64,000 nt of DNA from Thermalbibacter longus. Lineage in GTDB: Bacteria; Chloroflexota; Chloroflexia; Thermomicrobiales; Thermomicrobiaceae. The notes beneath the pieces were generated by a model. It did not search any database. It was not told the DNA's origin and saw nothing but the letters and a program-made list of their open reading frames with translations. The stretch covers positions 124,001 through 188,000 of the forward strand of contig NZ_JAMSLR010000006.1 in NCBI RefSeq assembly GCF_023806485.1, written 5' to 3'. Positions 2,637-5,263 of this stretch are shown piece after piece (position 1 is the first letter of the stretch; each line of letters begins with the position of its first letter). A program made the translations under genes and the position numbers.

Positions 2637-3380
2637 TCATGGCTGTCGCTCGCGGGCGGCCCACGCTACCGCGCCGCGCAGTCGCCGGGTCAGTCGATTC
2701 CTCTCGTCCCGCGAGTGCCGGTCGCCGGCCGGCTGCTCGAGTAGGCGGCGCAGGTCGGCCAGCGCCCGGTGCTGGATGACCGAGACGTTGGCCTCGCTCT
2801 TGCCGAGCGCTGCTGCCACCTCAGCGACTGAGAGGCCGTCGATGAAGCGAAGGATGAGAACCTGTCGGCGCTCTGGCCGGAGCTGGAGGATGGCGCGGCG
2901 GACATCGTCGCAGTCTAGCCAGGTCATCGCTGTTCCCTCTGGATCCTCGTGGCAGCACTGGCGGAGCGGAGCTGTCTCGAGATCGGTCGTGAGAAGCCGG
3001 CGCAGCTTCCGGTAATGGCTCGTTGCCAGCCGGTCGCTGATCGTCAGCAGCCAGGCGATGAAAGGCGCCTCTGTTCTGCGGTAGTGGCCGATCGCTCGCC
3101 AGGCGCGCAGGAAGGTTTCCTGGGTCAGGTCCTCAGCGTCGCTGCGGTGCCCGGTGCGGTAGTAGCAGTGCCGGTAGACGCGATCGACATAACGATCGTA
3201 GAGTGCGGCGAACGCCTCCACATCCCCCTGGACCGCTGCGTCGACGAGCAGCCGCTCATCGGCATCGCGCTGGTCCGGTGGAGTGGCCGGAATCACTTCC
3301 GCTCCGGCCACTCCTGATCGGTCTCCGAGGCGAAGAAGGTTCGGTGTCATCCCACTCGCCGTCCGCGTCGTCCCGATCAC
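2637..3380 (-). CDS. ECF-type RNA polymerase sigma factor
   Basis: A 247-residue sigma-70 family protein. Region 2 lies near residues 58-95 (YDRYVDRVYRHCYYRTGHRS, then AEDLTQETFLRAWR). Region 4 with its helix-turn-helix lies near 170-220 (LRPERRQVLILRFIDGLSVAEVAAALG). No anti-sigma domain is fused. The GTG at 3380 overlaps the stop of the upstream repeat-protein gene by 4 bases (GTGA); an internal ATG at 3350 is an alternative that loses ten residues. Coupling to the membrane-anchored repeat protein suggests that protein senses or restrains the sigma factor. The order is the reverse of the usual sigma-first arrangement. Target promoters are unknown. Confidence 0.88.
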   Translation of the reverse strand: MIGTTRTASGMTPNLLRLGDRSGVAGAEVIPATPPDQRDADERLLVDAAVQGDVEAFAALYDRYVDRVYRHCYYRTGHRSDAEDLTQETFLRAWRAIGHYRRTEAPFIAWLLTISDRLATSHYRKLRRLLTTDLETAPLRQCCHEDPEGTAMTWLDCDDVRRAILQLRPERRQVLILRFIDGLSVAEVAAALGKSEANVSVIQHRALADLRRLLEQPAGDRHSRDERNRLTRRLRGAVAWAARERQP

Positions 3381-4396
3381 TCCTCGCCAGTCTCGTCCTG
3401 CTCTTCCTCGTCTTCATCTCCGCCTGGTAGGCCAGCCGGCTTGCCGGACTTCGCGGCCTCGCTCACCTGAGCGCCGTGGTTGTCGCGGGCGACGTCGCGG
3501 ACGGACTGCTCTTCCTGCTGGCCTTCCTGTTCTCCTGCTTCTTCGCCGTCCTGCTGGCCTTCCTGTTCCTCTGCCTGGTCGCTTTCCTGCTCGCCTTCCT
3601 GTTCCTCTGCTTCCTCCTCGCCGCCCTTCGAGCGCGCGACTTCAGAGACCTGAGCTCCGTGGTTGTCGCGCGCTACCTCGCTCACCTGCTGGCCGTGGTT
3701 GGTCTCGCCACCGGGCTCGTTCGTAGTCGCTACCGCCGAGACCGCAGCCCCGTGGTTATCTCGAGCGACCTCACTCACCTGCTGCCCGTGGTCGGTCTCG
3801 CCGCCACTCGCGTGAGAGGTCGCCACGGCCGAGACCTGAGCTCCGTGGTTATCGCGCGCGACTTCACGCACTGCCTGGCCGTGCGTGCTTGGTTGCTGGG
3901 TGGTGGATTCTGGCACTGTCGACTCGGGTGTCTGTGTCGGCTCTGACGTGGCCGTCTCCTCGGGGGTGACGGTCGGCTCAGGGGTGGCCGGCGGTGTCGG
4001 TTCCGGGGTCGAGTCCTCCTCCTGGAGCAGCTCGAACTGCTGGTTACTGCTAGCCATGGTATCAGCGGCGAGGGATGTGTCATCCCCGCCGAAAGCCATC
4101 CTCACACCTGCCGCGACGTTCGAGAAGGCGCCCCCGAGGCCACCGGGGCCGGCAAGTGCCGGCATCGCGATCAGCGCGACGGCGAGCGCTGCGGCACCGG
4201 CTATCGCGATTCGCCGGGAGAGTGGAACTGGCCGTTCGCCGCGAGCCCGTCTGCCCGAGCGAAGCAGCGCTTCTCGCCCTCGCGCGCGAAATGCTGGTGC
4301 CGGTCTCGCCAGCGGGTCGGCATCGAGCCGGATCGCGGATCGCTCCAGGGCGTCGATCAAGGAGTCAGTTCGATCGTCGTCGCGCATACCAGTCAC
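3377..4396 (-). CDS. membrane-anchored HGxxVSxVA repeat protein, possible anti-sigma partner
   Basis: A 339-residue protein of unknown function. Residues 1-58 are charged and presumably cytoplasmic, and a single membrane segment follows near 62-83 (IAIAGAAALAVALIAMPALA). The rest is low-complexity: a Pro/Thr/Glu linker, then repeated units of the form HGxQVSxVARDNHGAQVSxVA, interrupted by a Glu/Gln-rich stretch of about 50 residues, ending with an acidic tail. The GTG at 4396 follows GAGGAGGGG. It is translationally coupled to the downstream ECF sigma gene. A one-pass protein with a cytoplasmic head next to an ECF sigma gene suggests an anti-sigma or signalling role, but no zinc-finger anti-sigma motif is visible. 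The repeats are likely outside the membrane. Confidence 0.75.
   Translation of the reverse strand: MTGMRDDDRTDSLIDALERSAIRLDADPLARPAPAFRARGREALLRSGRRARGERPVPLSRRIAIAGAAALAVALIAMPALAGPGGLGGAFSNVAAGVRMAFGGDDTSLAADTMASSNQQFELLQEEDSTPEPTPPATPEPTVTPEETATSEPTQTPESTVPESTTQQPSTHGQAVREVARDNHGAQVSAVATSHASGGETDHGQQVSEVARDNHGAAVSAVATTNEPGGETNHGQQVSEVARDNHGAQVSEVARSKGGEEEAEEQEGEQESDQAEEQEGQQDGEEAGEQEGQQEEQSVRDVARDNHGAQVSEAAKSGKPAGLPGGDEDEEEQDETGEE
3446..3887 (-). repeat. tandem HGxxVSxVA coding repeats
   Basis: Inside the membrane-anchored protein, about seven or eight copies of a roughly 12-residue unit (consensus HGxxVSxVA, often preceded by ARDN) are encoded. Copies alternate between an HGQQVSEVA and an NHGAQVSAVA form, giving a higher-order repeat of about 34 residues with a GGET spacer. 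A Glu/Gln-rich insert separates the last copy from the rest. Confidence 0.8.
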
Positions 4397-4419: not shown

Positions 4420-4455
4420 AACGCGTGCTCACTCCGAGAAACGCGTGACCGCGTG
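4420..4455. promoter_or_regulatory. direct repeats upstream of the repeat-protein/sigma operon
   Basis: AACGCGTG occurs at 4420-4427 and again at 4440-4447, exactly 20 bp apart, followed by a third CGCGTG at 4450-4455. They lie just upstream of the GTG start at 4396. The two-helical-turn spacing would suit binding of a dimeric regulator. This is inference from spacing only. Confidence 0.35.
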
Positions 4456-4724
4456 ACACCTTACATGGCGATGGGGGTAGTCGCGAGTAGGAAATTCTTC
4501 CTAGCCCGGGCGCGGGATCATGCAACCAGGCGCACGTGCCGGCGGCTGCTGTCTGGAGAGCGAGTGACGCGAGAGCCTCATCTAGCTGCCGCAGTTAGGG
4601 CAGGCGACCGACGAGCTCCCGGAACTGCTCGAGCGGGAACGCCTTGGGTCACGCTCGTGTTCAGATTGACTTTCCTTATATGCCAGAGATGATCAGTCGT
4701 CAAGAGAGGAAATGCTTATCGCGG

Positions 4725-4753: not shown

Positions 4754-4918
4754 GGGAGTTAATGGCCAAGGGTTTCCGCGCGTGGCTCGAGGCGACAGCG
4801 AGGGCCTGTCTCCCCGAACTCATCTCTGCGAGAAAACCCCTAAGCCGTGAAGAGGTCTGATCCGTGTCGGCCATGGACGCAGGTCTGTGGCCCTGGAACC
4901 CAAGGAGCATCCGCCGAG

Positions 4919-5263
4919 ATGAGTTATGCCTTCACCGACAAGACCCTCACCTGTCGCGACTGCGGCACCACCTTCGTCTTCACCGCAGGTGAGCAGCAGT
5001 TCTACGCCGACAAGGGCTTCACGAACGAGCCGACGAGGTGCCCGTCCTGCCGCCAGGCGAACCGGGCCCGGCGCGCCGGCCGTGGTGAGGCGGGTTCGTC
5101 GGGCTACCGAGCGCGCGAGCCGCGTGCGGACCGCCCGATGTACCCTGCGATCTGCAGCGACTGCGGCCGCGAGACCATGGTGCCGTTCCTCCCGCGAGAG
5201 GATCGCCCGGTCTACTGCTCGGATTGCTTCCGAGCCCGCCGGCAACTCAGCGCCAGCTACTAG
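4919..5263 (+). CDS. zinc-ribbon protein with two CxxC pairs of pairs
   Basis: A 114-residue soluble protein with two zinc-ribbon modules. The N-terminal one has CRDCG near residue 12 and CPSCRQ near 41. The C-terminal one has CSDCGRE near 78 and YCSDCF near 98. It matches the CxxC-x-CxxC zinc-ribbon family (the 'probable zinc-ribbon' type) common in Chloroflexota, whose role is not well established; nucleic-acid or protein binding is likely. The ATG at 4919 has AAGGAG at 4902-4907, so I prefer it to earlier in-frame starts. A strong hairpin follows the stop. Confidence 0.85.
   Translation: MSYAFTDKTLTCRDCGTTFVFTAGEQQFYADKGFTNEPTRCPSCRQANRARRAGRGEAGSSGYRAREPRADRPMYPAICSDCGRETMVPFLPREDRPVYCSDCFRARRQLSASY

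Follow-up and report, generated by a model that had tools for sequence, protein, structure and literature searches.

The window analysed here, a stretch of 64,000 nucleotides from Thermalbibacter longus, carries on its reverse strand a gene for an ECF sigma factor and, according to the list of open reading frames, a 339-aa reading frame whose product bears HGxxVSxVA repeats (Table 1). The gene order is reversed, with the membrane-protein gene first and the sigma gene second, and the stop codon of the repeat gene overlaps the GTG start of the sigma gene in the four bases GTGA. Both points had been made in the first-pass annotation and are borne out by comparison with relatives: the order is kept in the orthologous loci of G001, G003, G008 and G180, the overlap measuring four bases in the first three and 11 bases in the last. 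Orthologues of the repeat protein occur in nine further Thermomicrobiaceae genomes from two genera and in one genome of another, distant Chloroflexota family (G180), where the head, the membrane segment, the HG repeats and the gene order are the same. Because orthologues retain the repeat gene, the overlap and the sigma gene, both reading frames are judged to be genuine. On the forward strand, a long open reading frame (131-2623) is convergent with the sigma gene and resembles by eye an M14-type zinc carboxypeptidase; in G002 a close homologue comes after sigma. A small divergent reading frame with CxxC pairs (4847-5263, forward strand) looks by eye like a zinc-ribbon protein.

Table 1. Coordinates in the window of the sigma gene, the repeat gene and their associated elements.
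Feature	Positions	Strand	Basis
BldN-like ECF sigma factor, 247 aa	2637..3380	-	Pfam, TIGR02952 and 6dxo_A matches
HG-repeat membrane protein, probable anti-sigma factor	3377..4396	-	ORF and orthologues
GTGA shared by the repeat-gene stop and the sigma start	3377..3380	-	sequence
Last HGxxVSEAA unit, residues 298-317	3446..3505	-	conserved in most orthologues
Acidic Q/E/G-rich spacer, residues 258-297	3506..3625	-	sequence
Six HGxxVSxVA units, residues 171-257	3626..3886	-	unit positions, shuffle test
T/P/E-rich linker, residues 105-170, ~65 aa	3887..4084	-	sequence
Transmembrane segment, residues 59-83, ending in conserved PALAGPGG	4148..4222	-	AlphaFold helix 59-76
Cytoplasmic head, residues 14-47, probable shortened anti-sigma domain, IDALERSAIRLDADPLARPAPAFRARGREALLRS region	4256..4357	-	hhalign, AlphaFold helices
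Predicted autoregulatory promoter TGTAA-N17-CGTT	4440..4465	-	motif conservation
Conserved palindrome-like GGCTAGGAAGAATTTCCTA upstream of the repeat gene	4488..4506	-	CTAGG-containing core in orthologues

The sigma factor contains the regions 2 and 4 required of an ECF member (Pfam Sigma70_r2, 67.6 bits; r4_2, 48.9 bits). Its nearest NCBIfam model is TIGR02952, that of the BldN family, which it matches at 145.9 bits, under the curated cut-off of 206.45; the protein was accordingly rejected as a BldN equivalog and is considered related only. The best match among solved structures (E 1.4e-30) is BldN in its complex with RsbN, 6dxo_A. BldN and RsbN are encoded by adjacent genes in Streptomyces (PMC4255298), RsbN being the membrane-anchored, zinc-free anti-sigma partner (PMC8103513). 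Relatives of the window sigma factor in the phylum, which are ~40-56% identical to it, are mostly followed by an overlapping downstream gene whose product has one transmembrane segment, and DUF5667 (Pfam) is present in both of the scanned partners, L130 and L132.

The repeat protein consists of a head of ~58 residues, a membrane helix, the T/P/E-rich linker, six repeat units, the acidic spacer and a seventh unit. The short cytoplasmic head, one membrane segment and repeat-rich outer part originally described are thus recovered, with a single membrane helix predicted by AlphaFold at residues 59-76, a head that is cytoplasmic by the positive-inside rule, and seven HG units; the linker and the acidic spacer before the last unit had gone undescribed. 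The linker differs in length between orthologues, and the spacer is shorter in them. HGxxVxx[VA]A units start at residues 172, 184, 203, 215, 234, 246 and 307, and shuffling the tail 20,000 times yielded at most one such unit. Several of the units are regularly spaced, and across the aligned orthologue units their His-Gly pair shows little or no variation. AlphaFold predicts disorder after the membrane helix and no fold for the repeats (pLDDT mostly <50), which argues against the designed, folded ligand-binding array that had been envisaged. At the outer end of the membrane segment, P-x-L-A-G-P is invariant among Thermomicrobiaceae members. The nearly invariant PALAGPG of the family (residues 79-85; 4142-4162, reverse strand) is reminiscent of the A-x-A site of signal peptidase I, and cleavage there might release the outer part.

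Family searches gave no assignment for this protein: scans against Pfam, NCBIfam and PHROGs returned low-complexity matches or none. Pfam DUF5667 (PF18915) has no match in it, and with the DUF5667 region absent, the protein was therefore not filed under that family. It contains no cysteine, so that a zinc finger is impossible, and a class I zinc anti-sigma factor (HxxxCxxC) was rejected on this ground and for want of a Pfam match. The earlier statement that a zinc finger is missing is therefore correct. Head residues 14-47 align with the anti-sigma domains of the DUF5667-type partners of the sigma relatives (hhalign 32.6, E 2.4e-6), and none of 400 column-shuffled controls scored above 21. The cytoplasmic domains of these partners end in a motif of the type LLxxAxxIxPxPxxxPDPxFRxRxRxxLL, and the alignment matches the window head, LIDALERSAIRLDADPLARPAPAFRARGREALL, to the second half of this domain, whose first part the head lacks. 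AlphaFold places two helices in the head, at residues 7-26 and 34-48, with pLDDT of 70-78 in the region. As the head matches a domain of the sigma relatives' own partners, it very probably represents an anti-sigma domain in a shortened, two-helix version.

The relation of the head to a known structure passes through the same partners. When the DUF5667-type partner profile was compared with the Protein Data Bank, the top match was the RsbN chain 6dxo_D (E 0.021), and the partner domains align with RsbN at an hhalign score of 26.6, 200 shuffles giving ≤15.7. Compared directly, head and RsbN score 8.3, which is chance level, and a PDB search with the head alignment alone gave no match; the link to RsbN is therefore indirect, through the DUF5667-type partners. 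In the alignment made through these domains, the second head helix corresponds to the last helix of RsbN. In the BldN-RsbN complex, the first two of the three anti-sigma helices contact sigma region 4 and the third and last contacts region 2 (PMC7406223). Chain D of 6dxo carries a BldN label, yet its sequence is not that of a sigma factor, and it was taken as RsbN; the names BldN and RsbN are likewise interchanged in PMC7406223.

Upstream of the repeat gene, TGTAA-N17-CGTT begins 68-81 bases before the gene in the window, G002, G003, G008, G014 and G180, and is missing at this place in G011, G016, G018 and G019; G014 retains it without a working sigma. The motif was picked after viewing upstream regions of Thermomicrobiaceae, a choice of which the 25 sigma relatives are independent, and it precedes 14 of these 25 (shuffled sequences: mean 0.29, maximum 2). 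The BldN motif is CGTAAC-N16-CGTTGA (PMC2375139). A stricter form of the promoter has a single occurrence in each of three genomes, namely the window's own, G003 and G008, and in all three it stands at the repeat/sigma operon. In the own genome a relaxed form has two occurrences, one of them elsewhere, and a regulon search there with the promoter pattern revealed no further convincing target. The CTAGG-containing core of the palindrome-like GGCTAGGAAGAATTTCCTA is present upstream of the repeat gene in both sigma-bearing and sigma-less genomes, with two matches to a relaxed version of the palindrome in the own genome, and it may act as an operator or as an additional promoter element.

Two features of class III anti-sigma factors are thus found at this locus: a single membrane anchor, the hydrophobic helix 59-76, behind a cytoplasmic domain, and a gene adjoining, here overlapping, that of a BldN-like ECF sigma factor whose best match is 6dxo_A. 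The pair shares with BldN-RsbN the BldN-like sigma, the adjacent genes and the same promoter type and spacing. However, in comparison with RsbN (class III, PDB 6dxo) the window head is shorter, with two predicted helices instead of three, the anti-sigma gene precedes that of sigma and overlaps it, and HG repeats make up the outer part. With the DUF5667-type anti-sigma factors (L130, L132 and others) the repeat protein has in common the second half of the domain, the single transmembrane segment and the promoter; those factors, in contrast, are encoded downstream of sigma, their head is longer and a DUF5667 region lies outside the membrane. The anti-sigma gene also stands ahead of the sigma gene in cnrYXH. 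CnrY of Cupriavidus, a class II factor, likewise has a head of two helices, one of which lies on region 4 of sigma and the other on region 2 (PMC7406223); its sensory partner differs, and no sequence relation is claimed.

Among 43 sigma proteins placed in a tree, those five with an HG protein encoded upstream form one clade (support 99/96) that adjoins a group with the usual gene order. The replacement of the tail and the reversal of the order are therefore most simply explained as a single event, suggesting that the arrangement arose once.

The consequences of losing sigma can be followed within the family. Among the Thermomicrobium-like genomes (g6) with the repeat protein, only G008 has a sigma orthologue. 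None was found in G011, G014 and G016, each 99% complete, where the best paralogues reach ≤38%; the loss is less certain in G018 and G019 because the contig ends just past the gene, and G019 is 62% complete. The G014 repeat gene, 89.6% identical to that of G008 at the DNA level, is intact and followed by a colinear, decayed sigma remnant (L029:7344-7757; score 70, shuffles at most 52), and eight residues of the second helix are gone from its head. No remnant above shuffles was detected in G016 or G011. Heads are unrecognisable in G011, G018 and G019, and the last repeat of G018 is disrupted. Between G011 and G019 the repeats show a dN of 0.106 and a dN/dS of 0.29, and the head a dN of 1.07. 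In the metagenome-derived G002, sigma residues 1-93 have been deleted exactly after the repeat-gene stop (L025:6982-7449) and the head is intact; G002 and G014, as exceptions, may represent recent losses. Judged from these comparisons, where sigma was lost, the head and usually the promoter decayed and the HG repeats stayed under selection.

An initial scan of genome contigs with the whole repeat protein gave no match and a plasmid search with the repeat returned one chance match only. In a sample of the phylum, 58 of 400 Chloroflexota genomes have HG matches (E up to 0.05). A reading frame with at least two HGxxV units was present at 45 of the 55 loci fetched outside the family; two of these 45 lie in a sigma operon (L111, L115) and two have a divergent sigma gene nearby (L116, L191), numbers that are a lower bound because contig ends truncate some of the flanks and the sigma model favours BldN-like sigmas. 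Most HG proteins outside the family are ~100-300 aa long with an N-terminal hydrophobic segment. The small secreted Chloroflexota proteins among them carry the same HGxxVSxVA units behind that segment and, unlike the window protein, have neither an anti-sigma head nor an adjacent sigma gene. The repeat corresponds to no named family in the libraries scanned. Since it mostly occurs without sigma, it is best described, on its distribution, as an extracellular module in its own right, as yet unnamed, that an anti-sigma factor has acquired, and not by nature a sigma-specific sensor. The assumption that the repeats as such belong to sigma control finds no support: a prevalence of repeats without a sigma neighbour, named in the first-pass annotation as contrary evidence, is observed for the module and not for the head-bearing protein. 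At L111 (2314-4079), a sigma gene is followed by a gene whose anti-sigma-like product combines a single membrane helix, an HG motif and DUF5666 repeats. Shewanella loci L100-L103 encode two NHGxxVSxxA-like units at the N-terminus, and the two proteins scanned are DUF5610 proteins.

The anatomy of the repeat protein, the homology of its head and of the sigma factor, the conservation of the promoter, the single origin of the arrangement and the joint decay of head and sigma make it highly probable that the pair is a BldN-RsbN-type sigma/anti-sigma operon with the HG-repeat membrane protein as the brake. As far as sequence can tell, this protein works like RsbN. Anchored in the membrane, it would bind sigma through its two-helix cytoplasmic head and keep it off RNA polymerase; once freed, sigma would drive transcription of the operon that encodes it, with TGTAA-N17-CGTT as the promoter. 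Since the anti-sigma gene is in first place and overlaps that of sigma, every round of transcription would supply fresh brake along with sigma, a negative feedback. Outside the membrane, the usual DUF5667 region would have been replaced by the flexible linker and the repeats, and this part may serve as the receiver of a signal. The HG module, which takes a stand-alone secreted form in most related bacteria, would in addition have a job of its own, independent of sigma control. The proposal that the repeat protein controls sigma is thus most likely right, its head aligning with a known anti-sigma domain and decaying upon sigma loss.

Sensing through the repeats is harder to sustain. Were they a ligand- or metal-binding array whose occupation releases sigma, their near-invariant His-Gly pairs, the regular spacing of several units and their position in the usual place of anti-sigma sensory domains would all make sense; however, no fold is predicted for them, they persist after sigma loss and they mostly occur without sigma, so that we regard this account as rather doubtful. 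It is very improbable that the genes are merely co-transcribed, paired by operon coincidence around a head without anti-sigma function. Such a coincidence would fit the chance-level score of the direct head-RsbN comparison, but not the significant match of the head to anti-sigma domains of sigma's own relatives, the conservation of the pairing in a distant family (G180) or the decay of the head with sigma.

Closer to the brake reading, which it overlaps, is the possibility, tentative as it is, that the main role of the repeat protein is as sigma's output and that its anti-sigma head lets its own level or export state meter sigma, the difference being in the purpose of the outer part. The stand-alone secreted modules elsewhere, the purifying selection on repeats that have lost their sigma, and a strict promoter confined to the operon, with the relaxed form at one other place in the genome, are consistent with this; yet further targets with a looser promoter may exist, many ECF operons regulate themselves without serving such a purpose, and a surface activity of the repeat protein would have to be assumed. 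By way of speculation, HGxxVSxVA may be a Chloroflexota-wide secreted module with an envelope function of its own that was fused a single time, in the present clade, to a BldN-type anti-sigma head with sigma behind it, giving a surface protein able to signal and restrict its own production.

With the pair read as a brake and its sigma factor, the type of system is a known one, and the HG-repeat tail, the shortened head and the reversed gene order appear to be new. A probable anti-sigma domain is identified in a protein that shows none in family searches, and little-studied BldN/RsbN-like pairs of Chloroflexota are linked to a common promoter that is directly testable. Attention is also drawn to a repeat family, so far unnamed, in many Chloroflexota genomes. 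Finally, sigma loss followed by decay of the head and retention of the repeats amounts to a natural experiment that separates the regulatory from the extracellular part of the protein.
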